NCBI GenBank assembly: GCA_026418195.1
Contig: JAOABU010000152.1
Coordinates: 1-42,809, forward strand
Length of the DNA stretch: 42,809 nucleotides
From: Spirochaetota bacterium
Lineage (GTDB): Bacteria > Spirochaetota > Spirochaetia > DTKZ01
Reading direction: 5' to 3'
The notes beneath the pieces are model-generated. The model was given only the letters and a program-made list of their open reading frames with translations, made no database searches and was not told the DNA's origin. Positions 6,189 to 41,411 of the stretch are shown one piece after another. Made by a program: the position numbers and the translations under genes. Every line of letters starts with the position of its first letter. Position 1 is the stretch's first letter.

Positions 6189-7130
6189 TTATAGGGGAAT
6201 GCCCTCAAAAGAAATAGGCTCAACTCCGAACAAAGTTTTAAGAGCGGCAGAAAATCTCTTTGGAAGAGGTGCTCGTATATCTAACCGACCAGGCAGAACT
6301 AACCGATACGCATGAAGGAGGTATTCTCCGCGAAACCGTTGACCCCCATACTTCGTATCCCCAAGAAGAGGGTGGTGTTCGAAGGAAGCTTGGGCACGGA
6401 TCTGATGTGTTTTTCCGGTTACGATCCGTAGGATCGCTAGGGTAAGCCCTGAAGGGAAACGGGTGCTCTGAGCAAGGGGAAATACTTCGGTAATCCCGCG
6501 CTTATATTCCCCTGTAGATTCAGTGCCTAAGAGTGTTTTTCGATGCCGGGTATCCCTTATCAACGAGTGTTCCCAACGGACTGGCTCCCTAAGGATTCCC
6601 GTTAGGATACTCACATAGTATTTTTGAACAAGACCGGTTTGCAGAGCGGAAGAGAATACCCTTGCCCCTTCCAGACTCTTTCCGAAGACCAGTATTCCAG
6701 TAGTGTTGCGGTCCAACCGATGGAGGGGCCCTGGAGAGTAGGTCAAGGAGGCTGGGATTTTCCCATGAAGGTACTGAAGGACTGGTTTCAAAAGAGAGTG
6801 TTCCCCATGAACCGTCATTCCCTTAGGCTTGTTCAGAACGAGAAAATCCTCGTCCTCATAAAGGATTGGCAAGGGGAAAATGGATATAGGTTCGCTTAGC
6901 GTAAGGGCTTTCGGCCATACACTGGAAGGAATGGATAGAACATCCCCCTGACTTACTCGTTGAGCTGGGGAAACTTCCCTTTGATTGAGGGTAATCAATC
7001 CTTTTCGAATCATCCGATAGATGGAACCCAGCGAATACTGCGGAAGCAGGTTCCGAAGGATACGATCGATTCGTTTCCCTTGGTCATTTTTTCCTACGGT
7101 AAAAAAACGAATCTCAGGATCTTGCCCCAT
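6189..7130 (-). CDS. RluA-family rRNA pseudouridine synthase (RluC/D-like)
   Basis: 313 aa. An N-terminal S4 RNA-binding region (about 18-75: RIDRILRNLLP...GLITLNQ) is followed by the pseudouridine synthase domain. The catalytic motif LHRLDRNTTGIL has Asp140 as the nucleophile, and KTHQIRAQ is the conserved later motif. Length and order match RluA-type enzymes that modify 23S rRNA in the cytoplasm. The specific uridine cannot be assigned. It is a single gene, convergent with the AAA+ gene and divergent from the DUF212 gene. TTGACA-17-TACCTT ends nine bases before the ATG and no Shine-Dalgarno site is present. Confidence 0.88.
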   Translation of the reverse strand: MGQDPEIRFFTVGKNDQGKRIDRILRNLLPQYSLGSIYRMIRKGLITLNQREVSPAQRVSQGDVLSIPSSVWPKALTLSEPISIFPLPILYEDEDFLVLNKPKGMTVHGEHSLLKPVLQYLHGKIPASLTYSPGPLHRLDRNTTGILVFGKSLEGARVFSSALQTGLVQKYYVSILTGILREPVRWEHSLIRDTRHRKTLLGTESTGEYKRGITEVFPLAQSTRFPSGLTLAILRIVTGKTHQIRAQASFEHHPLLGDTKYGGQRFRGEYLLHAYRLVLPGRLDIRAPLPKRFSAALKTLFGVEPISFEGIPL

Positions 7131-7194: not shown

Positions 7195-7223
7195 TTGACA
7201 AAGGATTGCCCACCGGTGAAACT
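7195..7223 (+). promoter_or_regulatory. Putative promoter for the DUF212-Rnf operon
   Basis: A perfect TTGACA (7195-7200), 17 bases, then a weak GAAACT (7218-7223). The ATG at 7233 follows nine bases after. This is the only promoter-like site I see before the rnf genes, so it may drive the whole 7233-16076 unit. Confidence 0.35.
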
Positions 7224-7232
7224 AACCCCGCC

Positions 7233-7712
7233 ATGCCTGGGAAACTCCTGTATGCTCTTTCCCGTTTGATAGAGAATCCTGTATTCCTCTCTACATTTTC
7301 CGCATGGTTTTCAGCCCAATTTATTAAGACCGTAGTTGAACTCTTTAGAACCAGAGGTCTGTCGGGACGAGAGATCCTGGCAAACCTATTCTGGAAGACG
7401 GGCGGTATGCCTTCTAGCCATTCTTCCTTAGTAACCGCTTTGACCACATCCGTAGGAATCATGGAAGGGCTCGATTCAGTTCTCTTTGTCGTGGTATTAT
7501 TCTATGGGATTCTCACCATTCGCGATGCCCTTGGAGTGAGACGATCGGCTGGGGTGCAAGCTCAATGGTTGAATCAATTGAGGGTCGAATTGTTTCAACG
7601 ATATGGGATTACCCTCAAACCGGTAAAAGAAGTGCATGGACATACTCCAGCGGAAGTGTTTGTGGGGGTTATGCTTGGTTTTTTCATTGCGTTGGGAATT
7701 TGCAGCTTATAG
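7233..7712 (+). CDS. DUF212 divergent PAP2-family membrane protein
   Basis: 159 aa. Membrane helices surround the motifs GGMPSSHSSLVTAL (phosphatase-like SH motif) and HGHTPAEVFVG, with RDALGVRRSAGVQA between them: the signature set of DUF212, a divergent acid phosphatase/vanadium peroxidase-related family of unknown substrate, possibly lipid or polyprenyl phosphates. ATG at 7233 is chosen over an in-frame TTG at 7206, because the TTG lies between the -35 and -10 boxes of the likely promoter. It is followed after ten bases by the 510-aa membrane protein that precedes rnfC, so it appears to be the first gene of the Rnf operon. Confidence 0.8.
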   Translation: MPGKLLYALSRLIENPVFLSTFSAWFSAQFIKTVVELFRTRGLSGREILANLFWKTGGMPSSHSSLVTALTTSVGIMEGLDSVLFVVVLFYGILTIRDALGVRRSAGVQAQWLNQLRVELFQRYGITLKPVKEVHGHTPAEVFVGVMLGFFIALGICSL

Positions 7713-7722
7713 GACCTTTTAG

Positions 7723-9255
7723 ATGCTGAAACAATTGGGGAAAAAATTCAAACAATGGGTTACCTACCATCCACTTTTAAGTATTACCCTAGGTGGATTC
7801 CTGCTTGTTGGGTTCTTGGGGACAGGAGTTTTCCTACCTGGCCCGAGTAGATGGAAAGGGTACTACCTCGTCTTACTGGATGGAAAAGCCGATTTAGCAC
7901 AAACGATTCTGCAGCTAAAAACAGCTGGTTTTCATGAAGTCCTTTCGTCTGTTACAGCTCCCGTCCTGATACAGAGTTTCTCTCACTTGGAAAGCGTATA
8001 CGTGTCTCAGCTGAGGACAAGGCTACAACCCGAGGATCCAAGATTCGATGGGTTTCTTTCCAAAATAGAAAGAGTATTTCAAACGGAATCTTCTGAAGGA
8101 CATGTAGTGTATCTCCCGATCCACTACCATCCCCTCTATGTGTTCTATCGTTTATCCACGCTTCTACCTGATAGGAAGTGCCTATTGGCGGATTGGGATT
8201 TCTACCGATCTCTGGGTTTACTCGTTTTATTCATCCTCTTTGTTTTATTCCAAACGATTCGTACCAGCACCTACCGCTGGGCAAAGATCTTAACTGGGAT
8301 TCCATGGGTTCCTGTGATTCTTCAAGGAAACTTGATGGGATTTATCCTTACGGTCTGGTGTTATCAGGTATTTAGTACTATTCTAGATTCATTATGGGGC
8401 GAGGTTGAACAATACCTGTACTATCATAAACGTACAGGTATAGATGCGATCATTTCTAAAACCTTGAACCACTTCGTTTTAATGGCAGGAGTTCTGGTCC
8501 TTATAGCTGACACGAGTGTAATTATTGGGATCGTTTTCGGGAGTGTTCTGTCTCTGGGGATAGGAATGGAACTCATCCTTGTACAGTTCTACCACCTGAA
8601 CCTAAGGGAGCACCGTATCTTCCTCCCTCTACCTATTCTCCCCTCCCATTGGAAAGAAACGAAACGAAGTGTTCTCTACGGCTCCCTAATCCTTATTTCT
8701 GTAGCTCCCCTGTTGTATATGATGCCAATCCAAGGGGGGCAACAACAGATTCCTTCCCCTCGAGGAAGTACAATTCATCGGTTTTGGGGGACCCGTTCTG
8801 CGTATCGGGATCTGTGGGTACTTCATAAGAAAGATCCATTGCCGAACTTGAGTGATTTTATGGTCCATGTAAAATACCAAAGGGAGTTCCCCTATGGAGC
8901 GACCTACGAGTTCCCATCCCCAGAAGAAGAGTTATCCTATCCACGGTTTCGGGAAGAGGGAGGAAAACTTACCTTTTGGAATGAAACCATAGTAAGATAT
9001 GATAAAACATGGTATAACCAAACTCTCCATGGTGCGAAAAAGGACAAGCTTGGGAATCTTTTCTATAGGCAGGGGGCACGAATAACGGTGTGGGAACCCA
9101 TTTTCAAGCGACTTTCGGGAACTCAGTTGTTAATTTACTATACGGTTGTTATTCTAGTGGCAACCGCCTCTTATAGGATCAGGATGCCCTTGATGCATAA
9201 ACCAATTCGATGGATCCTGGGTGTAATCACTCGGAGAAAGCAGCAAGAAGCATGA
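7723..9255 (+). CDS. Polytopic membrane protein of unknown function, coupled to rnfC
   Basis: 510 aa, not recognised. Predicted membrane helices lie near residues 17-38, 162-180, 190-218, 250-292 (two), 316-335 and 470-490. Soluble regions are 42-150 and about 337-468; the latter is rich in Tyr, Trp and charged residues. No Cys-rich cluster, nucleotide-binding or flavin motif is visible. A TAGGA Shine-Dalgarno-like site precedes the ATG. Its stop overlaps the rnfC start as ATGA at 9252-9255, which implies translational coupling and suggests an assembly partner or extra subunit of the Rnf-like complex. That role is inference from position only. Confidence 0.7.
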   Translation: MLKQLGKKFKQWVTYHPLLSITLGGFLLVGFLGTGVFLPGPSRWKGYYLVLLDGKADLAQTILQLKTAGFHEVLSSVTAPVLIQSFSHLESVYVSQLRTRLQPEDPRFDGFLSKIERVFQTESSEGHVVYLPIHYHPLYVFYRLSTLLPDRKCLLADWDFYRSLGLLVLFILFVLFQTIRTSTYRWAKILTGIPWVPVILQGNLMGFILTVWCYQVFSTILDSLWGEVEQYLYYHKRTGIDAIISKTLNHFVLMAGVLVLIADTSVIIGIVFGSVLSLGIGMELILVQFYHLNLREHRIFLPLPILPSHWKETKRSVLYGSLILISVAPLLYMMPIQGGQQQIPSPRGSTIHRFWGTRSAYRDLWVLHKKDPLPNLSDFMVHVKYQREFPYGATYEFPSPEEELSYPRFREEGGKLTFWNETIVRYDKTWYNQTLHGAKKDKLGNLFYRQGARITVWEPIFKRLSGTQLLIYYTVVILVATASYRIRMPLMHKPIRWILGVITRRKQQEA

Positions 9256-10601
9256 ATCGTATCTTTCGCTTACCAAAGGGTGGATTATACCTGCCCTCGC
9301 AGAAAGAAGTCGTAAAGGGATTCCCCATACGGAATGCGGTATTACCCCCTATCGCGGTAGTTCCTCTGGTTCAATCAGATGGAAATGAAGTGACTCGTCT
9401 AGTTCAGGTAGGAGATTTTGTTCAAGAAGGAGTATTGATTGGAAAAGGAAAGGGGAAACATTCTCTCCATATCCATGCTTCTATCCCTGGTACAGTCCAA
9501 GAAATCCGACCTATCCCCCTTCCCAGAGGCATCGAAGCACCTGCGGTATTTATCGAATTAGGAGGGGAGTTTGATCGCTTGGGTAAGAAAGAAGTGGTTT
9601 ACCCTTGGAGAAGTCTGTCCCATCGAGAGCTGAAAAATTTGCTCATTGAAAAAGGAGTGGTAGATGGAAACTTTCCCCTTGATGGACCCATCGAACTGTT
9701 GATTATCAACGGGATGGAATTGGAACCATACCTATGTTCCGAGTATCGTCTCCTAATGGAACGATCCGATGCGATACTAGAAGGAATTCGCATCCTTCAA
9801 AAATTACTCGATCCAGCACGTACTTTAGTAGTCTTGGAAGATAAAGCTCTAGATGTACAGGTCTCCTTGGGCGCTTCATTAAGGAACCAACAGATACAAG
9901 GGACAGAAGGGGCGAGTGGGAAAGAGATCGAACTAGTTTTGTTGGAAGGAAAATATCCTGCTGGTGATCCAGAGCAGCTGGTGAACATATTTTTTCACCA
10001 GAAGGTAACCCCAAAAAGAACGCTTGGAGAAATGGGGGTGACGGTGATAGATATTGCTACTACTTTTGCGGTGTATGAAGGGGTAGCATTAAGAAAACCA
10101 TTGATGGAGAGGGTTATTACGGTTAGTGGCAAGGCCATTAGGAGACCTGCAAACTTAAAAGTACGGATTGGAACACCCATTCTAGATATCATTGAAGAAT
10201 GTGGTGGTCTTACACAAACTCCTGTGAAAGTAGTGTGTGGTGGACCGTTCCGTGGCTATGGAATTTTTGATCTTCGCACACCCGTTACTAGGGAGATGTC
10301 TGGGATCCTCTTTTTAACAAAAGACGAAATCCACCCGGGAGTGAGAACTTCCTGTATCAACTGTGGCAATTGCCTTGAAGTATGTCCGGAAGGATTGCAT
10401 CCATCACGGCTCTTCAAATGGATCGATCATGGGTATTTTAATGAAGCATTGGAAGATTCTCTTTTGGGTTGTACCGAATGCGGCTGTTGTGCGTTTGTTT
10501 GTCCTTCTCGTATTCCCCTTGTACAAGGATTTCAGGTAGGTAAGGTTCATGCAGCAAGAGTATTAAATGGAAGGAGTAGCAAGGATCAGCCCAATGGATG
10601 A
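9252..10601 (+). CDS. rnfC: RnfC-like subunit with altered NADH/FMN loop
   Basis: 449 aa. ATG at 9252 overlaps the previous stop and begins at the conserved N-terminal part; an upstream in-frame extension to 9210 lies inside the previous gene. The barrel-sandwich region is recognisable (HIHASIPGTVQEI). Two complete 4Fe-4S motifs follow: C368-C371-C374-C378 and C407-C410-C413-C417, the second running into PSRIPLVQGF as in RnfC. In the usual protein a glycine-rich GGAGFPT loop follows the AGIVG segment; here residues 135-146 read GVVDGNFPLDGP and the ECEPY motif is ELEPY (156-160). The typical NADH/FMN entry site therefore seems lost. Family assignment is firm; electron donor is not. Confidence 0.9.
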   Translation: MNRIFRLPKGGLYLPSQKEVVKGFPIRNAVLPPIAVVPLVQSDGNEVTRLVQVGDFVQEGVLIGKGKGKHSLHIHASIPGTVQEIRPIPLPRGIEAPAVFIELGGEFDRLGKKEVVYPWRSLSHRELKNLLIEKGVVDGNFPLDGPIELLIINGMELEPYLCSEYRLLMERSDAILEGIRILQKLLDPARTLVVLEDKALDVQVSLGASLRNQQIQGTEGASGKEIELVLLEGKYPAGDPEQLVNIFFHQKVTPKRTLGEMGVTVIDIATTFAVYEGVALRKPLMERVITVSGKAIRRPANLKVRIGTPILDIIEECGGLTQTPVKVVCGGPFRGYGIFDLRTPVTREMSGILFLTKDEIHPGVRTSCINCGNCLEVCPEGLHPSRLFKWIDHGYFNEALEDSLLGCTECGCCAFVCPSRIPLVQGFQVGKVHAARVLNGRSSKDQPNG

Positions 10602-11685
10602 AACATTGATCATTACTGGAACTCCTCAAATATTTAACCGAACAACAACTGCTCGAATGATCTGGACAGTGTGTGTATGGTTAGCACCTGCTGCTCTGTG
10701 GGGAGTCTATCTGTATGGAATGGGGGCATTGAAAATCCTTCTTGTTTCTATTCTAACCTCGATAGGAATTGAGGGAGGGATTGGACTTTTGCGAAAGGAA
10801 TCGACTCTCCAGGATGGGAGTGCATGTTTGACCGGCTTATTGATAGGCATGCTGTTACCTCCAACGGTTCCTCTGTTCATTCCCATCTTGGCGGTAGTAT
10901 TTGCACTCTTGGTGGTGAAGTGGTCTTTTGGAGGATTAGGAAAGAACTGGATGAATCCAGCCCTCGGTGGCTGGGCCTTTGTCTGGCTTTCCTTTCCGGA
11001 TCAAGTTCATACTTGGTTATTCCCTGCGATGGTTCGGGGAGTCGATGCAATTACTTCTAGCACCCCTCTGATCCTTTTGAAAAACAAACTGTTTCTTGAA
11101 GGTGTAAAAGGCAGTTCTCCCATGGAGATCCTTGCCAGTGCAGGGTTCCCTAGAAGCCTCATGGATGGCTCTTGGACCGACTGGTTGAATGGGAAAATTC
11201 TAGAACCGTTGGGGATCCTACTTCCTCCAGGATACATAGATCTTTTCTTTGGGTTTACCCCCGGAGCGATCGGGGAAACTTCTGCTTTTCTCCTTTTAAT
11301 AGGCACGATCGCTCTAATTGGTAAAGGGATTCTCCCATGGGAAGTACCGTTGAGTGTATTTACTGTGTTTGGGACCCTGGTTTTTCTTTTTGGTGGTTTC
11401 CCCTATGGATTGGGATGGGGAACAGGAGATGTCTTGTTTCAATTCTTCACGGGAGGATTCCTTTTAGGAGCCTTCTATATGGCTACTGATCTGGTGACTT
11501 CTCCATTGACAAGGTGGGGAGGGATAGTATACGGGGCAGGGATAGGGGGAATCACTTTCCTTATTCGTATGTTTGGTGGGGCTGGAGAGGGGATCGGATT
11601 TGCTATTCTTTTCATGAATATATTTGTGCCCATATTGAATCGATTCCTTACACCAAAACCAAGGGTTAAGGATAAAAGGGTATGA
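10594..11685 (+). CDS. rnfD: RnfD, membrane subunit with covalent FMN site
   Basis: 363 aa. ATG at 10594 overlaps rnfC by eight bases and has an AAGGAT site upstream; longer in-frame starts lie inside rnfC. Multiple helices are present, with the conserved GGLGKNWMNPALGGWAF segment (about 113-129) and the flavinylation motif DAITSSTPL, Thr157 being the expected FMN attachment residue (phosphoester, made by ApbE, not in this window). It is paralogous to NqrB encoded at 41408-42328. Unlike RnfA, RnfE, RnfB and RnfC in this operon, the cofactor site looks intact. Stop overlaps rnfG as ATGA. Confidence 0.92.
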   Translation: MDETLIITGTPQIFNRTTTARMIWTVCVWLAPAALWGVYLYGMGALKILLVSILTSIGIEGGIGLLRKESTLQDGSACLTGLLIGMLLPPTVPLFIPILAVVFALLVVKWSFGGLGKNWMNPALGGWAFVWLSFPDQVHTWLFPAMVRGVDAITSSTPLILLKNKLFLEGVKGSSPMEILASAGFPRSLMDGSWTDWLNGKILEPLGILLPPGYIDLFFGFTPGAIGETSAFLLLIGTIALIGKGILPWEVPLSVFTVFGTLVFLFGGFPYGLGWGTGDVLFQFFTGGFLLGAFYMATDLVTSPLTRWGGIVYGAGIGGITFLIRMFGGAGEGIGFAILFMNIFVPILNRFLTPKPRVKDKRV

Positions 11686-12260
11686 ATCGATACCTTCCAA
11701 TCTGGGGTAGAGTAACGTTTCTTTGTCTAGTATCCGCTTTTCTATTAGGTTTAGCAAATTGGGGTGTTTCATACCAGATTCATAGACAAGAGAAGCAAGT
11801 CTTCGAATCTCTATTAAAAGGATGGAAACAAGATGTGCGCCTAGGTAAAGATCTAACCATAGGAGTAGAACGATCGGTACCCTCCATGAGGTTTGTAAAG
11901 AGCTACATCCCTATACGTGGCGTTGAAGGAAAAACGGAGCTTTTTATGGTACGGATAATTCCAGGAGGATACGTAGGTCATTATCAACTTTTGGTAGCAT
12001 ACACCAAGGAGGGAAAATTGGTGGGATATTTGGTGGAAAGAGAGATAGTTCCTACGATTTCTACCTATTCTAAACCATCCCCGGAGTTATATAAAATTTT
12101 CTTGGAAAAGGGCAGATGGACATATAGACCTACCGGAATTGATACCCTGCAACGGGAAGAAATCGAAGCTATCAGTGGGGCAACTAATACCTTCTTATCG
12201 CTATTAGAAGCCTTACAGGAAGGATCCTCTTTTGTCAAAGGGGGGGAGAAACGGCCATGA
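11682..12260 (+). CDS. rnfG: RnfG, periplasmic FMN-carrying subunit
   Basis: 192 aa: one N-terminal membrane anchor (about 10-30) and an extracytoplasmic FMN-binding domain. EAISGATNT places the flavin-accepting Thr at 168. The ETPGLG motif usual in RnfG/NqrC is replaced by EIVPTIS around 121-127, so the domain is diverged although the attachment site remains. Gene overlaps both neighbours with ATGA junctions (11682-11685 and 12257-12260), consistent with a translationally coupled complex. Confidence 0.9.
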   Translation: MNRYLPIWGRVTFLCLVSAFLLGLANWGVSYQIHRQEKQVFESLLKGWKQDVRLGKDLTIGVERSVPSMRFVKSYIPIRGVEGKTELFMVRIIPGGYVGHYQLLVAYTKEGKLVGYLVEREIVPTISTYSKPSPELYKIFLEKGRWTYRPTGIDTLQREEIEAISGATNTFLSLLEALQEGSSFVKGGEKRP

Positions 12261-12883
12261 GCTTCACGGAGCGAATGATTGCTAAGAATCCAGTCTTTGG
12301 TTTGGGTTTAGGGGTTCTTCCTGTCCTAGCGTTATCCTATCGGTTCGATACCGCTTGGATAACGGGATTTCTGAGTCTTATGCTTCTTCTGTTGGGGAAG
12401 GGGACTGTACGTATGGTGAAGGAACTGTTTCCTTCATCGATCCTATGGTATGTACGTATGATGGTGCTAAGCTTCTGGGTAGCTTTAACAGAAATCATCT
12501 TCGAGGCGTATATCCCGCAGGCAAGGGATTCCTTTGGTATCTACCTTTCCCTCTTAACTGTGAATACCTTTCTCCTAGAGGCCATTTTCCCTACGGAACA
12601 GGTTGAGCATAACGAATGGTGTGGAACTCTGCTATTAGGATTAGGATACCTTTGTACTATTGGGATTATGGGTGCTCTTCGAGAGATTGTTAGTTCTGGA
12701 ACCCTAACAATCGTTAAGTTACCAGGTTGGACATTGAGGTATGCCATTCTCAACAAACCCTTACTTCCTCTTCGATTTTTCGCCCTCCCAGCAGGAGGAT
12801 TCATCCTTTATGGGTACTTCAAAGCAGGATTCCGGATGGTGGCGATTCACAGCTATAGAAAGAGGACCGCGGAGGAACCATGA
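12257..12883 (+). CDS. rnfE: RnfE-like membrane subunit lacking both cluster cysteines
   Basis: 208 aa, six helices of the RnfE/NqrD fold, recognisable from KNPVFGLGLGVLPVLALS at the N-terminus and ALREIVSSGTL later. In Rnf/Nqr this subunit supplies two cysteines to an intramembrane [2Fe-2S] cluster, in LGxC and TNC motifs. Here the first position is Leu21 (GVLPVLAL) and the second is Thr104 (VNTFLLE). Both are therefore missing. The NqrD encoded at 40195-40800 keeps both. ATGA overlaps on both sides. Confidence 0.88.
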   Translation: MSFTERMIAKNPVFGLGLGVLPVLALSYRFDTAWITGFLSLMLLLLGKGTVRMVKELFPSSILWYVRMMVLSFWVALTEIIFEAYIPQARDSFGIYLSLLTVNTFLLEAIFPTEQVEHNEWCGTLLLGLGYLCTIGIMGALREIVSSGTLTIVKLPGWTLRYAILNKPLLPLRFFALPAGGFILYGYFKAGFRMVAIHSYRKRTAEEP

Positions 12884-13455
12884 GTTATATGGGTCTACTT
12901 TTCACTTTTGTGTTTGCGCAGAATGTGCTGCTATACTACTTTTTTGGCATTGATTCTGTGGAGGACATGAAGGATGATCGTTCCCGATTCCTGATTCAGG
13001 AAGGGTTGGTGCTTATAGGTGTTTGTTCATGTTCTGGAATCATGATCCGGTCCATTCACCAGTTCATCCTTCTTCCTTTAGGTTTGACGTATCTAAAGAC
13101 TGTGACTGCCGTGTTACTCATCCTTGTGGTAGGTAAAATCACAGATTCTATCCTGAAGCGCTTCAAGGTGTCCCTCAATGTATGGAGACTCATGGTGAAC
13201 TCACTAGTGGTGGGTATTTCCTTACTTGCCGTCCATGGGAAGTACTCATTAGGTGAAAGCTTCATGGCAGGGCTTTCTGCGGGATTAGGGTATCTCTTTG
13301 CTGTGTACTTGTTAGGGGTTTTGCAGGAACAATTCAAGAGGGAATGGATACCTAGATCTTTACAGGGTGTCCCGATCCTTGCAATTTCCGCGGGTTTGAT
13401 GGCGATGGCCTTTCTGGCCATCGATGCGGCTCTGTTAAAACGGATATTTGGGTAA
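12880..13455 (+). CDS. rnfA: RnfA-like membrane subunit lacking both cluster cysteines
   Basis: 191 aa, six helices of the RnfA/NqrE fold (FAQNVLLYYFFGI; LPLGLTYLKT; SAGLGYLFAVYLLGVLQE; LMAMAFLAID). The usual FLGxC and TNC cysteines are replaced by Asp25 (FFGIDS) and Ser108 (MVNSLVV). Two other cysteines, C49 and C51 (GVCSCSG), sit in the second helix and could in principle offer alternative ligands. The paralogous NqrE in this window keeps C29 and C117. Order rnfC-D-G-E-A-B is the common clostridial-type order. Confidence 0.88.
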   Translation: MSYMGLLFTFVFAQNVLLYYFFGIDSVEDMKDDRSRFLIQEGLVLIGVCSCSGIMIRSIHQFILLPLGLTYLKTVTAVLLILVVGKITDSILKRFKVSLNVWRLMVNSLVVGISLLAVHGKYSLGESFMAGLSAGLGYLFAVYLLGVLQEQFKREWIPRSLQGVPILAISAGLMAMAFLAIDAALLKRIFG

Positions 13456-13459
13456 TACT

Positions 13460-14131
13460 GTGTTAGATTTCGTTTTGAATATCCTATATGCTTTGGTGGC
13501 TTTAGGGGTAGTGGGAGGTATTTTGGGTCTATTACTTTCCCTCTCAGAGACAGAGGATGGAGAAAAAATATCACCTCCCCTGGAAAACCTAACCTGTTTG
13601 CCTTTACACTTTAAGGATGGATCCTACCCTCAGGTCCATTGCAAAGGAGGAGCGGGTAAAGCTCGATATGTCTTCATGTACAAAGGAATCAATGATTGTA
13701 CTGCCTTGTACCGGTTATTCAAAGGAAACAAACTCTGTAAATATGCGTGTCTGGAGATGGGGAGTTGTGTTCGCGTTTGTCCTAACGGAGCAATTCATCG
13801 AGAAGAGGGTGGAACCATGGTGGTGGATCCTGAAGTATGTATTGCCTGCGGTTCTTGTATCTCGGTTTGCCCCACGGGGGTGCTTAGGTACATCCCGAGA
13901 ACTGCAGATTACTATGTAGCCTGTAATTCCATAGAGGATGGCCCGAATACTACCGCAACCTGCACGGTGGGGTGTATAGGATGTCGCATCTGTGAACGAC
14001 GATCAGTGGATGGTGGCTTCATTATTGAACGTCACCTAGCGAAGATAAATTATTCTAAGCAGGGGGAACGGCATCATGCAGCAGAGGATTGTCCCACAAA
14101 ATGTATCGTCAAACATGAGTTCAATTCGTAG
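13460..14131 (+). CDS. rnfB: RnfB-like ferredoxin subunit, shortened
   Basis: 223 aa from GTG at 13460, which begins the expected N-terminal helix; TTG at 13448 inside rnfA is an alternative. After the helix (1-28) and a linker, the protein goes directly to the YKGINDC segment. The usual intervening domain of about 60-65 residues with its CGxCGxxxC cluster is absent. Two complete 4Fe-4S sets follow: C93-C97-C103-C107 and C127-C130-C133-C137. A third motif, C168-C172-C175-C178, lacks the usual final CysPro, and of the last cluster only C211 and C215 remain. Electron entry is probably altered. Last rnf gene of the operon. Confidence 0.88.
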   Translation: MLDFVLNILYALVALGVVGGILGLLLSLSETEDGEKISPPLENLTCLPLHFKDGSYPQVHCKGGAGKARYVFMYKGINDCTALYRLFKGNKLCKYACLEMGSCVRVCPNGAIHREEGGTMVVDPEVCIACGSCISVCPTGVLRYIPRTADYYVACNSIEDGPNTTATCTVGCIGCRICERRSVDGGFIIERHLAKINYSKQGERHHAAEDCPTKCIVKHEFNS

Positions 14132-14144
14132 AGGCAGGAATTGA

Positions 14145-16076
14145 ATGCCTGGAGTTCAATTGATTTTTGGAACGTATAATACTACCCCTTTAGGAGGATC
14201 CGAGTCGTTTCGAGAGGAACAATACCAGCAGTGTATCAAACCCTTTCTTAGTACCTTGTACCTTTTCCCTGAAATTCCTACCGTTCTATACTATTCCGGC
14301 ATTCTCTTACAATGGCTAGAAAAAAAACATCCCGAGTTTCTGGATGTACTAGGTGAAATGGTTTCCCGTAAACAGGTTGAACTATTAGGAGGAGCCTTCT
14401 ATGATCCAATTCTTACCATACTGCCTCGCTCAGATGCATTAGGGCAGATAGAACTATTCACAACGTATCTTAGAAAGAAGTTTGGTAAACGACCTCGAGG
14501 GGCTTGGATCCCAGAACTGGAATGGGAGCCTTGGTTGGCTTCTACTTTGCGAACTTGCGGAATGGATTATACCTTCCTTGGGGAATACCACTTCAATGCT
14601 GCGGGAGTCATGAAACGGTATGTACCCTACCTAACCGAGGACCAAGGGAAAACCATCTACGTATTCCCGATATTCGAACAAATCTCCGATTCCCTGGAAA
14701 AAACATCACCAAAAGAAGTAATACGCGCCATTCTAACTCATCAATCGTCTTCAGAAGATAGACTTGTTACTCTCCTTGTTCCCGGTCATTACTGGACCAA
14801 CAAAAAAATCGAAGAGTTCTTTCTAGAGCTTAGAAAAAATGAGCAAATCCGGTGCACCCAACCCAATCAATATGTACGTTCAACCCATGTAGGATATAAA
14901 ACCTATTTCCCCTGTGGATCTAGAGAACAGAGAATGGTGGAAGCCCTGCCTGCTGAAAGGGCCAAAGAATATAAGGCATTGAAATCACGCCTGGGTACCC
15001 TAAATGGAGAAATGCTCTTCGGGGGAGGTTTTTTTCGCCAGCTTCTTGCTCGATATCCGGAAAGTAATCTGTTGTATGCCAAGATGCAATATACCCATCT
15101 TCTTGTGAATGGTGTACGGAGGGATAAATACCGCAAAATCGCAGCCCGTGAGGAACTCTGGAAAGGACAACATGGACAAGCATATTGGTCAGGATCCGTT
15201 TCAGGGGGGAACCTAATTCGGAGGCAGGCATATAAATCTCTCATTACCGCTGAACGGATTACGCGGGAGAAAGGAGTCTTCATCCCATCCTTGGTAGTGA
15301 TGGATTTTGACATGGATGGAAAAGATGAGTTTCTGTACCAAGGTCACGACTTGAACGCATATGTTCACACGAATGGAGGAGCTATCTTCGAGTTGGACAA
15401 TCTTAATAAGGCTTGGAATTATGTAGATTGTTCGATAAGGAAAATTGGGGGCAAGGAGGTGCTTCGCAAAATCTTTCTGGATCATTTCTTCCCTATCGGC
15501 ACTGAGCCTCAGGAACTGTTCTCTCCTAAACAGGGGGATTGGGGAGATTTTATAAATCAATCCTACACGGTGGTGAAGTGTGACAAGGAGCGCAGTGAGC
15601 TTGTGCTGGAGCGAAGGAGTACAGTAAGACAAGCGAAGGAACAGATTCCCGTACGGTTAGTAAAAAAATACATTTTCAAGGGGAACACCATCAACCTCTA
15701 CTATTCCTTGACCAATACAAGTTCGGCATCTTTACGGATGTGTTTTGGTGTGGAGGTGAATTTTTCTTTTGCTGATAGAGAACAGGTTCGGGTTCTATGG
15801 CAGGAAGGGAAAAGCAGGAGAGAAGTACATCATACACCAAGCGAGCTATCGAATGTAAGCGAGATCTCTTTCGAAGACTCTTCCCATGGAACACAAATTG
15901 TCGTATCTACCTTGGAACCTTGTTCCGCATGGGATTTGTCCAACGAATGGAAGGTGTCTTCCGCTGATGAAAATGGCCTGGATCTTGGCTCCTGTTTCGT
16001 TTCATATTGGGCTTTGGATCTACCTTCTGGAGCGGTTTGGGAAAATAGGATCACCCTGAAAATGGGAACTCTGTAG
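14145..16076 (+). CDS. GH57-like protein related to 4-alpha-glucanotransferase, partly degenerate active site
   Basis: 643 aa, collinear with the 4-alpha-glucanotransferase branch of GH57 (about 660 aa): catalytic barrel, helical domain (DUF1925-like) and C-terminal beta-sandwich (DUF1926-like; FLDHFFPIGTEP, WGDFINQSY). The nucleophile motif is present as WIPELEW with Glu124. The HNHQP motif near the N-terminus reads YNTTP (11-15), and the DDGEKFG motif carrying the acid/base Asp is replaced by VPGHYWTN (about 212-219) with a deletion. It may be inactive on glucan or use another residue. It follows rnfB by 13 bases with an AGGA site, so is in the Rnf operon. Cytoplasmic: no signal peptide. 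Confidence 0.8.
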   Translation: MPGVQLIFGTYNTTPLGGSESFREEQYQQCIKPFLSTLYLFPEIPTVLYYSGILLQWLEKKHPEFLDVLGEMVSRKQVELLGGAFYDPILTILPRSDALGQIELFTTYLRKKFGKRPRGAWIPELEWEPWLASTLRTCGMDYTFLGEYHFNAAGVMKRYVPYLTEDQGKTIYVFPIFEQISDSLEKTSPKEVIRAILTHQSSSEDRLVTLLVPGHYWTNKKIEEFFLELRKNEQIRCTQPNQYVRSTHVGYKTYFPCGSREQRMVEALPAERAKEYKALKSRLGTLNGEMLFGGGFFRQLLARYPESNLLYAKMQYTHLLVNGVRRDKYRKIAAREELWKGQHGQAYWSGSVSGGNLIRRQAYKSLITAERITREKGVFIPSLVVMDFDMDGKDEFLYQGHDLNAYVHTNGGAIFELDNLNKAWNYVDCSIRKIGGKEVLRKIFLDHFFPIGTEPQELFSPKQGDWGDFINQSYTVVKCDKERSELVLERRSTVRQAKEQIPVRLVKKYIFKGNTINLYYSLTNTSSASLRMCFGVEVNFSFADREQVRVLWQEGKSRREVHHTPSELSNVSEISFEDSSHGTQIVVSTLEPCSAWDLSNEWKVSSADENGLDLGSCFVSYWALDLPSGAVWENRITLKMGTL

Positions 16077-16090
16077 AGCCTACCATCCCT

Positions 16091-17350
16091 TCAACGAGAT
16101 GACATGGTTTGAAGTACAGCATCTATCCATGGTTGGGTTTCACTGAAGTAATACCGCGTTGCGAGTAGAAAGTCCAAGACAGATTCCCGATACTGAGCTA
16201 AAAAGAATTTAGCTTGTCCCCGGTAGAAGTATACTTGTGATCGGGCTTCCTCACTTAGGGGAAGGCGGGATAGAAGGTCTAACTGCAAGATCACCTCTTT
16301 CCATTCTCTGTTCTTGAAAGGACCTTTCAGCACTGCCTGCAGCATCTGTTCCTCTTTCTGGCCGGTATCTCCTTTATTAAAGGGGAGGATGGTAGGGGAT
16401 GGAAGGGGAGATTGAGGTTCAGGAAGAGGGGCTACCAGATCCTGTAAAACTTTTAACGTAGAAGTGGGGATGGGTATCGCAGGAGGGACACCATACTCAC
16501 TAGGGCTTGGGAGTGGATTTCCGGATTCAAAGCTCTGTTTTAATAGATAGAACGGGAGGGGTATGGGGCGTATGTAGGTTCCGTTCAGGGGAGGAAGAAT
16601 AGATATAGCAGGAAGGGCAGTGTTAGGAAGAGGGATCTCTACGTAGGTGCTAGTGACATTGTTCCCTTTTTCTAATCGAGGAAGTTTCATCTCCAATAGT
16701 TTAGCATCTACTACCGCATAATAGTAGGGTACACCCGGAACAGGATAATCTGATACCTCTGTTTCACTGCTAGGGAATCGTTTTACTTCGGTAGCAGCGG
16801 TTAGCTGCTCTACTGAAAGAATCGGAACGGTACTCCGGTATAGAATGAGATCTCTGTCTCCTCGGGAAGCCACAAATCGCACGAGGATATGATCTTTCAC
16901 GACTTCGGCTTTGATCGAGGAGATGCGAGCGGCCCGCTCTTCTTCCGGAGCAACGGAATCCAATCGAACGGGTGTCACTGTCTTGTTTCGAAAGGGGATC
17001 AGTTCTTGGTAGGTAGTACCCGTTTCACTCTTGATTAATACTGCATAGTAGTAAGAACCTACTTGATCGGGGATGTCGATGAAATACCCTGTACCATAGG
17101 GAACGATCCCTACAAGAGTGGCTTTTGGCAAGGTTTCTAGGGTAATTTCTACTGGGCTTCTATATACTAACAACATCCCGGGGGTATCTGGAGAATCTTC
17201 CCAGGTGATTTTTATCTGAGAGCCTCGTACTCCAACTTTGATTTGCGAGACATACGGGGATGGTATGTCTGCTAGGAGCGGTACAGGGCTAGTACATAGT
17301 ATGGTGAATAGCACAAGTATGGTTTTCACCCTATTGTTGATCTTTCCCAT
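16091..17350 (-). CDS. Secreted protein with fibronectin-like repeats, unknown function
   Basis: 419 aa, not recognised. The N-terminus is a classical signal peptide (basic start, hydrophobic 11-25, cleavage likely after LLA near residue 27). Two similar segments, about 35-120 and 145-225, each end in a Tyr-Tyr-Ala-Val strand (YYYAVL, YYYAVVD), suggesting a tandem fibronectin-III-like fold. A Pro-rich linker follows (about 250-330), and the last 80 residues are helical, TPR-like. Probably periplasmic or cell-surface. Convergent with the GH57 gene and divergent from prfB. Confidence 0.65.
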   Translation of the reverse strand: MGKINNRVKTILVLFTILCTSPVPLLADIPSPYVSQIKVGVRGSQIKITWEDSPDTPGMLLVYRSPVEITLETLPKATLVGIVPYGTGYFIDIPDQVGSYYYAVLIKSETGTTYQELIPFRNKTVTPVRLDSVAPEEERAARISSIKAEVVKDHILVRFVASRGDRDLILYRSTVPILSVEQLTAATEVKRFPSSETEVSDYPVPGVPYYYAVVDAKLLEMKLPRLEKGNNVTSTYVEIPLPNTALPAISILPPLNGTYIRPIPLPFYLLKQSFESGNPLPSPSEYGVPPAIPIPTSTLKVLQDLVAPLPEPQSPLPSPTILPFNKGDTGQKEEQMLQAVLKGPFKNREWKEVILQLDLLSRLPLSEEARSQVYFYRGQAKFFLAQYRESVLDFLLATRYYFSETQPWIDAVLQTMSSR

Positions 17351-25723: not shown

Positions 25724-26227
25724 ATGGTGTGTGATATTTGTAGAAAAGAAAAAGCAGTGATACGTATTCGGCAGATGATGGGTGACGAAACAAAGGAACT
25801 TCGCCTCTGTGAAACATGTGCCAGAGAGCAAGGAGTTCTTGGAGTAGGAAAAGACCTGCAAGAGGGAATTGGTTGGCTTTTACAGGGTCTTTTCGAAGTT
25901 GTCACTCCTAAAACTACCAGTGGAGTCGCTTGTCCCTCTTGCGGAAGCCGGTTCCGGGATATTCGGACCAAGCATCAGGTTGGATGCGCTGAATGTTACC
26001 GAGTGTTCACCAAAGAATTACGGAAACTCTTAGGTATCAAGCAGAAAGATTGGATTTACCCAGGCCGATCACCCAAACGAATTGAAACCTATAAAGTGAT
26101 CCTTGTGGATCGAGTGAACTTGAAAACCCAATTGGAAGCAGCTCTACAGGTAGAAGACTATGAAACTGCTGCAGCCCTCCGAGATCAATTAGCCAAGTTG
26201 GATAAGGAGACCGGAGCTACCCGATGA
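25724..26227 (+). CDS. mcsA: McsA, zinc-binding partner of McsB
   Basis: 167 aa. Paired CxxC motifs (CDIC and CETC near the N-terminus, CPSC and CAEC at about 68-90) give two zinc sites. A C-terminal UVR motif spans about 130-165 (LEAALQVEDYETAAALRDQL). The order matches McsA, which activates the McsB arginine kinase and links it to ClpC in Firmicutes. Here all zinc ligands are present although the adjacent McsB has lost its active site. TGA overlaps the mcsB ATG (26224-26227). Confidence 0.9.
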   Translation: MVCDICRKEKAVIRIRQMMGDETKELRLCETCAREQGVLGVGKDLQEGIGWLLQGLFEVVTPKTTSGVACPSCGSRFRDIRTKHQVGCAECYRVFTKELRKLLGIKQKDWIYPGRSPKRIETYKVILVDRVNLKTQLEAALQVEDYETAAALRDQLAKLDKETGATR

Positions 26228-27303
26228 AGGAGCTCACTTTTCCGCTTCCGCATTGGTTGAAAGAAGAGGGTCCAGAATCCGATATTGTACTGGCAACTCG
26301 ATCTACCCTAATTCGTAACGTATCCAGTATTCCTTTCATTCCGAGTATTTCCGATGAACAATTAACCGAAGTAGCTACAAAGATCGAGGAAGCTTTAGAA
26401 GCCTTGGATCTATTGGATCTCTTTGTAAAGTACGAAATAGAAAAGCTCCCTGAACTAGGGTTACGGTATTTCGAAGAAGAAGGTACGATACCTGAAGATG
26501 TTCCCCGAGAACAGAGATACTTATATATTCAGGAAGAAGGTAGGCTGTTCATGACGGTCAATGTAGGGGATCACTTGCGTATCGAAAGACGACGCGGGGG
26601 GTTACGCATAGAGGAAGGATTCCAGAAGATTAAATCCATCGATCTTCAGCTGGAAACTCAATTGGATTATGCTTTTTCATTAGAATGGGGCTACCTTACC
26701 ACTAGATTGGAAGATTCTGGGTCAGGTTTATCCTTTACATTTGTACTTCATCTCCCCGGCCTTTCGATGAAAAATGAATTGGAATCCATCCAGCAAATGA
26801 TGAGGGATGAAGGATATATGATTAGACCTTTATTCCTCAGTACATCGGCCGATAACGAAACTGTAGCATTAGGGGAACTGTTTCTGCTGGAGTCTCTCCG
26901 ATTTACGGGAAAGCCGGAACAGGAAATCTGTAAAAGGCTTGAAGATAAGGTGGGTTCTTTATTACATTATGAGAGGGAACTGAGGCAACAGTTGCTGCAA
27001 GAGAAGCGATGGGCATTAGAGGATCGGGTGTTTCGGGCGCTGGGTGTATTAGAACGTGCTCGAATGCTTCAGTTGGAGGAAGCATTGGCAATGTTATCGC
27101 TGGTACGATTCGGTGCGTGTAGCGGTATATTGCCTGCCTCCTTGAGAGGTATTGTAGCTTCTCTCATTATTGAGAGTTGCCCAGCCCATGTAGCGATGCG
27201 GTTGGAGGAGGCTCAGAAAATAGATGAAGAAATCGAAGCCCTTGAACGGGCTCGTTATATCAATAGAAGTTTGAATAGTTTAAAAGGGAGGGACCGTGTT
27301 TAA
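26224..27303 (+). CDS. McsB-like protein, predicted catalytically dead arginine kinase
   Basis: 359 aa, collinear with McsB (GPESDIVL...RN at 16-32; DYAF...GYLT at 148-159; [14 protein letters not shown]). Residues essential in guanidino kinases are altered. The SRIRLARN nucleotide motif reads TRSTLIRN (25-32); NEEDH reads NVGDH (113-117), losing both Glu; the reactive Cys of TSCPTNVGTG is Arg161 in [10 protein letters not shown]. The GEGSEA loop is STSADN, and the C-terminal RPNER phosphoarginine pocket reads RLEEA. It is still held between mcsA and clpC with overlapping junctions, so a non-catalytic adaptor or regulator role is likely. Homology is clear by position and fold motifs; the lack of activity is inference. 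Confidence 0.85.
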
Positions 27304-29815
27304 AGGTTTGACTCAAAGGGCACAACGGATTTTAACCATTTTGGCCCAAGATGAGGCAAAACGCTTCCATTCTGAACAATTATTACCAGAGCACATTCTT
27401 CTCGCCATCCTTCGGGAAGGGTCGGGGTTAGGGTACAAAGTCTTACAGAAGGCCATGATCGATCCTCAAAAACTCCAAGCAGAGATAGAAAATGCCCTTC
27501 CCAAGAAGAAGGGAGGTTTTATTCTTGGGGACGTTCCACCTTCCCCTAGAGGGAAAAAGATTCTAGAAGATTCAGCAGAGGAAGCCAGGAACTTGGGGCA
27601 CGAGTACATAGGCACCGAACATTTATTATTGGCCTGCTGCCGGGAAGAGGGAAGCGTGATGGCCCGATTCCTCAGTAACAATAATGTGACTATAGAAATG
27701 CTTCGGGATATCGTGCAGGAGTTGACAGGAACTTCTTCTCAATCTACCTCGAAGAACCTTGCCTATGATGCAGGAGTGAAGAAGAAGGTCGTTCCACCCC
27801 AAGGGAAAAAAGCGACTCCCACGCTAGATGAGTTTTCGCGGGATCTTACTCAGCTAGCGGTAGAGAACAAACTAGATCCGGTGATTGGAAGAACACGGGA
27901 AATCCAACGGGTAATTCAGATTCTGGCTCGAAGAACGAAAAATAACCCTGTTCTTATCGGAGAACCGGGAGTTGGAAAAACCGCTATTGTGGAAGGATTA
28001 GCTCAACGAATCGTAGATGGGTCGGTTCCGGATGTCTTGATGGGGAAACGTGTTCTTACATTGGATTTGGCATCGGTAATTGCGGGGACCAAGTATAGAG
28101 GAGAGTTCGAGGAACGGTTAAAAAGGATCATGAAGGAAATCGTTGCGGCGGAGAATGTGATCCTCTTCATCGATGAGCTCCATACCATCATCGGAGCGGG
28201 AGGAGCCGAAGGAGCCATCGATGCATCCAACATGTTGAAGCCCGCCCTCTCCCGTGGAGAAATCCAATGTATTGGAGCTACCACCCTCAATGAGTACAAG
28301 AAATACATTGAAAAGGATGCAGCCCTAGAACGGAGATTCCAGACGGTATACGTGGAAGAACCTACGGTGGAAGAAACGATCGAGATCCTGAAAGGGATCA
28401 AGGAACGGTACGAGGAGCATCACAACGTCTCCTATACTACCGGGGCGCTGGAAGTAGCAGCTGTCCTTTCTCGAAGGTACATTACCGATCGATACCTGCC
28501 AGACAAAGCTATCGACTTGATTGATGAGGCAGGATCTAGGAAAAGAATTATGAACAATATCCGGCCTTCGGAAGTGGTAGAATTAGAGAAAGAAATCGAA
28601 CGACTCAATGCAGAAAAGATGGCCCTCGTAACTGCTCAGAACTACGAGAAGGCAGCAGCCATTCGGGATACCATCAAGCAACTTAGAGCTAGAGTGGAAG
28701 AACTGAAGAACGAATGGAAGGTAACCCTTAAATCCGATCAAAACGTGGTGGATGCATCGGATATTCAGCAGGTGATTTCCGATATTACGGGTATTCCCCT
28801 TGCTCGATTAGCTCTGGATGAGTCCGAACGACTTTTGCATATCGAGGAAGAACTCCACAAACGGGTCATAGGGCAGGATGAAGCGATTCGAACCATAGCT
28901 TCTGCCATTCGCAGGTCGAGGACAGGACTAAGTTCACCATCTCGACCAATGGGGTCCTTTATCTTTCTTGGTCCTACGGGTGTAGGGAAAAGCTTGCTGG
29001 CAAAAACCCTTGCTGAGTATCTATTTGGAAACGAGGATGCTCTTGTACGGATCGATATGTCGGATTACATGGAAAAGCACAATGTGTCACGACTTGTAGG
29101 AGCTCCTCCCGGATATATTGGATACGAAGAGGGAGGGATTCTCACCGAGAAGATCCGCCGGAGGCCCTACAGTGTCATCCTACTGGATGAGATCGAAAAA
29201 GCTCATCCTGATGTGTTCAATATCCTTCTTCAAGTACTGGAAGAAGGTCAACTACAGGACAATCTAGGGCATACGGTTTCCTTCAGAAACGCGGTACTCA
29301 TCATGACATCCAATGCAGGAGCTCGGGAAATCTCGAAAGATTCGTTCCTTGGGTTCCAACCCCAGCAGGGAGTCATGGACTATAAGGAGATTAAAGCCTC
29401 AGCCCTGAATGAGCTGAAGCGACTATTCAGGCCTGAGTTCTTGAACCGAGTGGATGAGATCGTAGTTTTCCACAGCTTAGATAAGAAACAGGTTGCTGCT
29501 ATCCTAGAGATTCTTCTGAAAGAAGTGGCTGACAGGTTGAAGGAACGAGATATCCGATTAGAAGTGACCCAGAAGGCAAAAGACTATCTGATTGAAAAAG
29601 GGTATGACGTAAAGTTTGGAGCAAGACCCTTACGAAGGGCCATACAGCAGGAAATCGAAGATCCTCTAGCCATGGAAATTTTGAAACGGCGGTTCGAAAG
29701 CGGAAGTACCGTGGTTGTGAGTGTCCGCAAAGGAAAGCTGGTGTTTCTCGAAGGCCCTAAAGAGAGGAAACCTGCTCTACCGGCTCCTAAAGAGGTGATA
29801 AGTCTTTCGAATTAA
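27296..29815 (+). CDS. clpC: ClpC, Hsp100 unfoldase of the Clp protease
   Basis: 839 aa. GTG start at 27296 overlaps mcsB by eight bases, with GGGAGG just before it. Clp-N repeats (1-145), AAA+ domain 1 with GEPGVGKT at 222-229 and ILFIDELHT, a middle domain with the UVR-like [10 protein letters not shown] motif (about 450), and AAA+ domain 2 with GPTGVGKS at 559-566 and [12 protein letters not shown]. The short middle domain distinguishes ClpC from ClpB. It unfolds substrates for ClpP in the cytoplasm. Adaptors are expected to be McsA, the McsB-like protein or the downstream zinc-ribbon protein. Confidence 0.95.
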
Positions 29816-39604: not shown

Positions 39605-40198
39605 CTATTGAACCTTCAACATACCCGAGAAGCCGATGAAAGCCATGGCCATGAATCCAATGGTGATCAGGGTTATGCCGGGACCCTTTAACCCGGCTGG
39701 GACAGGAGCTCTGTCTACTTTCTTTCGAATAGCCGCTAAAGAAGCGATTGCCAACCACCACCCTAACCCAGAACCTAGGCTGAAAATGGCCGATTGAAGG
39801 AAGGTGTAGTTTCTGATTTCGATGAATAACACTGCACCCAAGATTGCGCAGTTCACCGTGATGAGGGGTAAAAAGATCCCCAGTGTCATATAGAGGGCAG
39901 GGGACAAACGATCGATTACCATTTCCAAGATCTGCACTACCGCGGCAATCACGATGATGAACACGATGAACCGAAGGTAGTACAGTCCTAAAGGAAACAG
40001 GATATAATGGAGAACGGCCCAGTTCACTACTCCTGTAATGGTGAGTACTACAGTTACGGCTAACCCAAGACCGTTGGAAGAATCAAAATCCTTAGAGATC
40101 GAAATGAAGGAGCACATTCCAAGGAAGTTGGCTAAAAGGATGTTACTGGTAAAGATGGAGGCGAAAAAGAGGCTCAAAGGGGCAATTTGCGGACTCAT
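39605..40198 (-). CDS. nqrE: NqrE, membrane subunit
   Basis: 197 aa, six helices. The [2Fe-2S] cysteines are both present: C29 in NFLGMCSF and C117 in ITVNCAILG. GSGLGWWLAIASLAAIRKK and ITIGFMAMAFIGFSG are typical NqrE segments. Together with NqrD it holds the intramembrane cluster. ATGA overlap with nqrD. Serves as the intact comparison for RnfA at 12880-13455. Confidence 0.94.
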   Translation of the reverse strand: MSPQIAPLSLFFASIFTSNILLANFLGMCSFISISKDFDSSNGLGLAVTVVLTITGVVNWAVLHYILFPLGLYYLRFIVFIIVIAAVVQILEMVIDRLSPALYMTLGIFLPLITVNCAILGAVLFIEIRNYTFLQSAIFSLGSGLGWWLAIASLAAIRKKVDRAPVPAGLKGPGITLITIGFMAMAFIGFSGMLKVQ

Positions 40199-40800
40199 GC
40201 TTTCCCTCCTGTCATACGATTCTTAGCGATCCAGAGAAGGATGGCCACTAAAAAGAAGGCGCTGGGAGCCATTACCATGATGGTCCACTGGGGGAACCAC
40301 GCAGGGGCTACAGGGAATCCAAAGAGGGTTCCAAACCCGAGGAATTCCCGTACGAAGGCAATGGCCATCAAGACCCACATATACCCAATACCGGAGGTAA
40401 GTCCATCCCAGAATGCGGGGATGGGAGGATTGCTTTGGGCGAAGGCTTCAGCTCTCCCCATTAAAATGCAATTAGTAATGATCAGACCCACATAGGGACC
40501 TAAACTCTTTGAAATTTCAGGTAGGAACGCTCTTAGTAAAATATCTACAATGATTACGTAGAAAGAGATGATCAACACCTGCACGATCATCCGTACTTTC
40601 CGAGGTATCCAGTCTTTCATGAAAGCGATGGTCAAGTTGGAGAATGCCGCGGTAAATGTAACACCCAGAGTCATGATGAGGGTGTTGGTAAGTAGGTTGG
40701 TTACGGCCAGCGTCGAGCAGATCCCAAGGATCTGAATGAAAATTGGGTTATTGAACCAGAGGTTTTCCCTCGATATTTTCTTTAAATCTTTAGCTGTCAT
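40195..40800 (-). CDS. nqrD: NqrD, membrane subunit
   Basis: 201 aa, six helices. Both cluster cysteines are kept: C28 in LGICSTLAVT and C111 in IITNCILMGRAEAF. FVREFLGFGTLFG and LAPSAFFL-like MAPSAFFLVAILLW are conserved. ATGA overlaps with nqrC and nqrE. It is the intact comparison for RnfE at 12257-12883. Confidence 0.94.
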   Translation of the reverse strand: MTAKDLKKISRENLWFNNPIFIQILGICSTLAVTNLLTNTLIMTLGVTFTAAFSNLTIAFMKDWIPRKVRMIVQVLIISFYVIIVDILLRAFLPEISKSLGPYVGLIITNCILMGRAEAFAQSNPPIPAFWDGLTSGIGYMWVLMAIAFVREFLGFGTLFGFPVAPAWFPQWTIMVMAPSAFFLVAILLWIAKNRMTGGKA

Positions 40801-41411
40801 CTAGAGCCTCCCAGGATCTTTTTAAACACGGTAAGTTCTCCATTCAAAATGGTATCCATCGCTTGACTGGTACGGCTTGCACCAGTGATTCCGTCCGCTA
40901 TTCCTTCCTCTTTGTTGGCTTTGCCGCTTCCAGCCTCCGCACCGAAGGTTACATGGATTCTGCCATTCTTCACTTTCAAGCCTCGAAACTGGTCTTTGAA
41001 CCAGGGATCGGCCACTCGACCTCCTAAACCAGGAGTTTCGTTGTGGCTCACGATCTGGATACCCACGATCTGGGAAACCTGTTCGTCCACCGATAGGATC
41101 CCCGTGATCGTTCCCCAGAGACCGCTTCCACTGAATTCCTTCGCATAGATCGTTTTTCCACCTTGAGTGCTCTTGTAGAAACGAACTCCTTCTTTATCCA
41201 GGATTTCAATGGCTTTGTAGAGGGTATTTACTTCTTCATCGGTGCGGAAGGGAATAGCCATAGCTGAGAGAATCGCTTTCTGTCTGGCTAGCTCTTGGTT
41301 TCGCTGCACGATCCCCGAGGTCCCTTCATTTGCCAATGCCAGGAGAAACACGAAGAGGAAGGTAATGATGAAGCTGAACACTACCGTATAGAGAATCCCA
41401 TCTTTCCTCAT
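40797..41411 (-). CDS. nqrC: NqrC, FMN-carrying periplasmic subunit
   Basis: 204 aa. One N-terminal helix (about 7-27) and an FMN domain with HNETPGLGG (123-131) and the attachment motif DGITGASRTS (173-182). The flavin-accepting position is Ser179 where Thr is usual; ApbE motifs allow either, so flavinylation is still expected. ATGA overlaps on both sides. Confidence 0.92.
   Translation of the reverse strand: MRKDGILYTVVFSFIITFLFVFLLALANEGTSGIVQRNQELARQKAILSAMAIPFRTDEEVNTLYKAIEILDKEGVRFYKSTQGGKTIYAKEFSGSGLWGTITGILSVDEQVSQIVGIQIVSHNETPGLGGRVADPWFKDQFRGLKVKNGRIHVTFGAEAGSGKANKEEGIADGITGASRTSQAMDTILNGELTVFKKILGGSR

Follow-up and report, generated by a model that had tools for sequence, protein, structure and literature searches.

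Loss of the four intramembrane [2Fe-2S] ligand cysteines from a native spirochaetal Rnf operon, and graded erosion of the complex in related lineages

What can an Rnf complex still do when the intramembrane [2Fe-2S] cluster, regarded as the pumping core of Rnf and Nqr, has lost its ligands? This question is raised by an operon on a stretch of 42,809 nucleotides from a Spirochaetota bacterium (contig JAOABU010000152.1 of GenBank assembly GCA_026418195.1; hereafter the window, meaning the whole stretch analysed), for which a sequence-only reading had claimed that RnfE and RnfA lack all four ligand cysteines.

Examination of the window revealed a complete set of rnfC, D, G, E, A and B genes in that order at 9210-14131 on the forward strand, with every reading frame intact and with ATGA overlaps joining rnfD, rnfG, rnfE and rnfA. 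A search against NCBIfam and Pfam gave good matches for RnfC (9210..10601; TIGR01945, 332 bits) and RnfD (10567..11685; TIGR01946). The diverged RnfG (11682..12260) was assigned from a weak TIGR01947 match and by alignment, and had no match to Pfam FMN_bind. RnfE (12257..12883; 208 aa) and RnfA (12880..13455; 191 aa) score under the curated NCBIfam cut-offs and over the Pfam ones, and RnfB (13448..14131) was recognised through its ferredoxin domains plus RnfB matches under cut-off. The operon contains rnfC and rnfB in place of nqrF and nqrA, neither of which is found in it.

Upstream lie genes for an RluA-type pseudouridine synthase (6189..7130, reverse strand; Pfam PF00849), a DUF212 (divergent PAP2) membrane protein (7206..7712, forward strand; PF02681, E 5e-41) and a 510-aa membrane protein with no Pfam or NCBIfam match (7723..9255, forward strand); a GH57-family glycosidase follows (14145..16076, forward strand; PF03065). 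The order RluA-DUF212-510-aa membrane protein-rnfCDGEAB-GH57 is that of the native spirochaetal locus. The RluA neighbour is common to loci of family f1, to T. pallidum-like and other Treponemataceae loci and to S. thermophila-like loci; the DUF212 and GH57 genes are conserved partners, GH57 adjoining native rnf in most lineages, and homologues of the 510-aa protein, conserved beside rnf class-wide, occur in 41 of the 60 relatives sampled, for the most part adjoining rnf. In the RnfC tree the window sequence joins those of its congener G001 and of G002 and G003 at 99-100% support, and all native copies separate from the type of Rnf encoded on contig C69 of the same genome (100/100). Horizontal acquisition of an odd Rnf was considered and discarded, given this grouping with native copies rather than with C69 and the synteny of the window with the intact copy of the sister genus G004 (rnf-GH57, then a release factor, a PEGA protein and ftsY) and with Treponema (RluA).

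In A. woodii the cluster is ligated, according to published work, by C25 and C108 from RnfE and by C25 and C113 from RnfA (PMC11889175). HMMER alignment places GVLP and VNT of window RnfE on GMCP and VNC of A. woodii RnfE (9eri_E), and GIDS and VNS of window RnfA on GICP and TNC of 7zc6_A/9eri_A; a multiple alignment gives the same columns, occupied by Leu21/Thr104 in RnfE and Asp25/Ser108 in RnfA, so that none of the four ligands is a cysteine. The absence that had been read from the letters alone is thus borne out by the alignment to characterised Rnf and Nqr subunits proposed at that time, as is the choice of the window Nqr as internal control. NqrE, NqrD and NqrC are encoded at 39605..41411 on the reverse strand, and NqrD (Cys28/Cys111) and NqrE (Cys29/Cys117) keep all four cysteines, as does a second, intact Rnf. 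The congener G001, 77-82% identical, has Phe/Thr in RnfE and Asp/Ser in RnfA at these columns, so the loss is not a sequencing error; alignment error was likewise discarded, as solved-structure alignments, MAFFT and profile-profile comparison are concordant. The AF2 model of RnfA (pLDDT 80) matches A. woodii RnfA (9eri_A) with a TM-score of 0.82, above any RnfE-type chain, and other RnfA/NqrE chains at 0.80-0.82; the six-helix fold is supported by this model for RnfA and by the profile alone (E 9e-26) for RnfE.

Asp and Ser ligate clusters in some proteins, and the congener shares C122/C133 of RnfE and C49 of RnfA; RnfA and RnfE might then still carry electrons through a cluster held by Asp25, Ser108, Thr104 or other cysteines. 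We consider this very improbable. Leu21 (Phe in the congener) is unable to ligate, no other cysteine of window RnfA or RnfE falls on any ligand column of the multiple alignment, the donor domain of RnfB is gone too, and A. woodii cysteine mutants are dead (PMC11889175). The suggestion in the sequence-only reading that C49 and C51 of RnfA might substitute was dropped: C51 is Phe in the congener, and both residues sit in TM2, the wrong helix.

The loss extends to other sites of the operon. RnfB retains its TM helix and C-terminal [4Fe-4S] domains and lacks the central ferredoxin domain with one [4Fe-4S], its match to 7zc6_B beginning at residue 101 of that chain; this domain, which donates electrons to the RnfA/E cluster (PMC12174285), is missing in the window genome and in G001 and present in G004. 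In RnfC, aligned to 7zc6_C, both [4Fe-4S] motifs are retained (8/8 Cys) and the FMN/NADH site (GxGGxGFP + ECEPYL) is gone, with VDGNFPL for GMGGAGFP and ELEPYL for ECEPYL. The R67-E115 ion pair of RnfE, implicated in Na+ binding (PMC11889175), is lost as well, the R67 equivalent being Leu and no Glu standing at E115; both residues were found in every intact native copy scored at residue level outside the window's family. RnfD, aligned to 9eri_D/7zc6_D, retains the covalent-FMN Thr and the riboflavin equivalents of N123 and D249, and in RnfG the flavin Thr (ISGAT) and GY persist but the ETPGxG stretch is gone.

Three options were offered earlier: another route for electrons, use of C49/C51, or a complex that has ceased to carry electrons across the membrane. 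With the donor domain of RnfB, the NADH/FMN site of RnfC and the Na+-gating residues also missing, the last of these fits best, as regards transfer by the known route. A. woodii loses Fd:NAD+ activity and no longer grows on H2+CO2 once the B8 cluster of RnfB, the AE1 cluster or the flavin sites of RnfG or RnfD are removed (PMC11889175). By this standard the loop Fd-RnfB-AE-G-D-C-NAD+ could not run in the window complex: no [2Fe-2S] cluster would form on RnfA/E, and redox-coupled Na+ pumping would cease with the ferredoxin:NAD+ loop. We regard the window operon as probably the native spirochaetal Rnf, with its pump dismantled and the complex still retained, probably for a task other than pumping. 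Three RnfA/E-type pairs are present in its genome (3.13 Mb, 98.6% complete): those of the eroded Rnf and the Nqr of the window and, on contig C69, that of an rnfCDGEAB set which is intact and has all four [2Fe-2S] cysteines; energy pumping would fall to the latter two. Elsewhere in the sample, G018, G043 and G050 have 8-11 RnfA/E-family matches each, which corresponds to roughly four or five Rnf/Nqr sets.

Intermediate states are found close by. Nine members of the order of the window genome were sampled, all of one family. The copy in G004 has four cysteines and a full RnfB, with the RnfC motif (GMESAVP) and E115 already altered. G005-G008 (g3) have two cysteines left (RnfE Cys1 and RnfA Cys2) and no rnfB match in their loci; the G005 contig stops soon after rnfA, and in G006-G008 the region 3' of rnfA holds unrelated genes or nothing Rnf-like. 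In G003 RnfE Cys1 is present and Cys2 gone, the contig stopping before rnfA, and the window genome (G000) and G001 have no ligand cysteine. Throughout the family RnfD and RnfG retain their flavin residues, except for Ser in place of the RnfG Thr in G006 and G007 (L041, L042), where GVS may represent a Ser-FMN or a loss. The order of events was likely loss of the NADH site and Na+ gate, then of half of the ligands, and finally of every ligand together with the donor domain of RnfB. The family offers a natural series in one gene family in which four ligands give way to two and then to none, matched by loss of the donor domain and the Na+ gate, and could help to tell the parts of Rnf needed for pumping from those serving another purpose.

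Read from sequence, the erosion comes in degrees and recurs in several spirochaete lineages, apparently including the agents of syphilis and of relapsing fever/Lyme disease. The sequence-only reading had left room for an absence that was clade-wide and already described. Several lineages are indeed eroded, yet about 23 sampled genomes have a native-type copy with all four cysteines, and no description of the ligand loss or of a graded series was found in the papers searched, mostly open-access ones. Family f8 (G015, G040 and G058, the first two of which we take to be S. thermophila) has no ligands and no rnfB found in its loci. Family f31 (G055) also has no ligand cysteines, and the alignment of its RnfD is ambiguous. 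In Treponemataceae RnfA Cys1 is replaced in all 14 loci read and RnfE Cys1 retained in just three; because RnfE Cys1 survives in these, in G003 and in g3, at least this one ligand must have been lost several times, and a single loss event is uncertain. Treponemataceae, f8 and f13 no longer have the RnfD Thr, and RnfG SGAT is missing from those read. In f13 C and D alone were seen, plus, in one of two genomes, an RnfA-like ORF with poor support (13.6%). G027 and G049, which we presume to be Borreliaceae, encode RnfC and RnfD as one protein of 768-770 aa without FeS cysteines, followed by an RnfA-like protein (L110 3823-6702; L111 3932-6810).

Orthology of the most diverged members was assessed by profile-profile comparison with negative cross-controls, which supported the Borreliaceae proteins (C, E 2e-22; D, 6e-14; A, 2e-9; 510-aa, 4e-18) and the Treponemataceae RnfE and RnfA (E 4e-16 and 6e-13). 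When intact RnfA is the sole reference, the RnfA-like protein of Borreliaceae reaches only 30%, and its assignment leans on intermediate eroded sequences. These comparisons suggest a candidate function for unannotated conserved Borrelia genes.

Could the window operon be a redundant copy in slow decay, functionless since a second Rnf or Nqr became available, that has merely not yet acquired stop codons? Against the congener G001 (dS 0.73-0.93), dN/dS is 0.143 for RnfE, 0.133 for RnfA, 0.109 for RnfB, 0.079 for RnfC and 0.051 for RnfD, with 0.027 for the DUF212 gene. The intact C69 copy, measured against G002, gives 0.021-0.023, so that constraint on the window genes, with values about six times those of intact Rnf (0.02), is relaxed. 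Moreover, G020, G045, G035 and G047 have lost rnfE/A or the entire rnf part while the flanking genes stay; the interval from the 510-aa gene to GH57 is free of rnf in G035 and G047, and the 510-aa gene stays beside GH57 where rnf has gone. Decay is nevertheless improbable in our judgement. The open reading frames are all intact, and dN/dS of 0.05-0.14 at dS of about 0.7-0.9 indicates that the window rnf genes are under purifying selection, relaxed yet clear, and are no pseudogenes. Additionally, all 40 sampled Treponemataceae genomes have RnfD homologues, most including a divergent native-type copy; the native locus is retained in genomes of 0.9-1.2 Mb; and RnfC keeps 8/8 FeS cysteines in every eroded lineage bar Borreliaceae. 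The earlier statement that this is not simple decay therefore stands, with intact frames, RnfA/E dN/dS of 0.133-0.143 and the close fit of the RnfA model to the known fold.

A further explanation is that the first RnfA ligand position (Asp25) has become a new site with a transport or binding role. This position is often Asp, Glu or Lys across eroded lineages: the window and its congener have Asp, g3 has Lys or Gln, Borreliaceae have Glu, and Treponemataceae have Glu, Lys, Asn or Asp. In the pump RnfA and RnfE work by alternating access, and RnfD is related to ammonium/urea transporters. We consider this explanation unlikely, as f8 has Ser and f31 Ala at the position, the Na+ residues R67/E115 are lost, and the retained FeS cysteines of RnfC are hard to square with a pure transporter.

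The same syntenic locus occurs in G078, which we infer to be T. pallidum and which is among the 14 Treponemataceae loci read; the designation of family f25 as Treponemataceae depends on this identification. The G078 RnfD, at 173.9-174.9 kb, carries Val260, as has been reported for TP0151 (PMC7162541). RluA-DUF212-rnfC-D-G-E-A-GH57 is kept (L127 4431-11013), with no 510-aa homologue detected at this locus and no recognisable rnfB beside it. The genome has one RnfD-family match (65.6 bits) and no PF02508 match. Most other sampled Treponemataceae have an intact second RnfD (330-372 bits) alongside the native one. At the ligand columns the RnfE-like ORF has Gly/Arg and the RnfA-like ORF Asp/Gly, all four being non-Cys as in the window. 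Unlike the window genome, G078 has also lost the residues that bind flavin in RnfD and RnfG, and it has no intact Rnf. A chemiosmotic "noncanonical" or "atypical" Rnf has been proposed for T. pallidum (PMC7512555), and the proposal was repeated for tp0151, whose product is called RnfD (PMC11371664); both treat the system as a redox pump. The proposal is in tension with the sequence: at the one Rnf-like locus of the genome, neither the cluster ligands nor the flavin residues of RnfD/RnfG are present, and no RnfB is recognisable beside it. Our findings bear on energy conservation by this putative Rnf.

Comparison with known systems helps to narrow what may remain. The window shares with the RnfABCDGE complexes of A. 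woodii (9eri), C. tetanomorphum (7zc6) and A. vinelandii (8ahx) the rnfCDGEAB order, the RnfA fold, the RnfC [4Fe-4S] motifs, the RnfD FMN/riboflavin residues and the RnfG flavin Thr, and differs from them in lacking the [2Fe-2S] ligands, the RnfB ferredoxin domain, the RnfC FMN/NADH motif and the R67/E115 pair. Cofactor loss with subunit retention has a precedent in the Na+-NQR of V. cholerae, where NqrA is an RnfC that lost its FMN, NAD and FeS sites and retained a structural role (PMC4014512); unlike the window operon, Na+-NQR retains the NqrD/E [2Fe-2S] cluster and includes NqrF. E. coli Rsx, the SoxR-reducing Rnf homologue, resembles the window operon in its assigned non-energetic role and differs in having no reported lack of [2Fe-2S] ligands.

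In the window complex a half-circuit from the RnfC [4Fe-4S] through RnfD riboflavin/FMN to RnfG FMN would remain. As a tentative proposal, it could act as a one-way relay from cytoplasm to periplasm in the window lineage, and where the flavin sites are lost the complex could serve structure or transport together with DUF212, the 510-aa protein and GH57; the relay is qualified by the lost ETPGxG stretch of RnfG and by the absence of candidates for the electron donor and the periplasmic acceptor. The retained function need not be redox, since sister lineages lost the flavin sites yet keep the genes. We give even chances to the broader proposal that an Rnf-derived complex shed its redox cofactors stepwise and took on, or always had, a non-energetic role with DUF212, the 510-aa protein and GH57, important enough for the complex to persist in T. 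pallidum and, FeS-less, in Borreliaceae; in that case the putative Rnf of T. pallidum would not pump.

The AF2 model of the 510-aa protein is confident (pLDDT 84), and an RND-type fold was not adopted for it, the PDB matches of that type being weak (E 2e-3, TM about 0.2). The Borreliaceae homologue begins with a lipobox-like signal. From its position and annotation ("putative lipoprotein"), bb0071 of B. burgdorferi may be this homologue; no bb0071 transposon mutants were recovered from larval ticks (PMC6516651). Beyond GH57, the window encodes at 16091-17350 a 419-aa protein without Pfam match, and a similar protein adjoins GH57 in the sister genus (L044 5231-6628). Finally, a UVR-motif protein, an ATP:guanido phosphotransferase (McsB-like) and a ClpC-type ATPase are encoded consecutively at 25724-29815, forming an McsAB-ClpC-like set.
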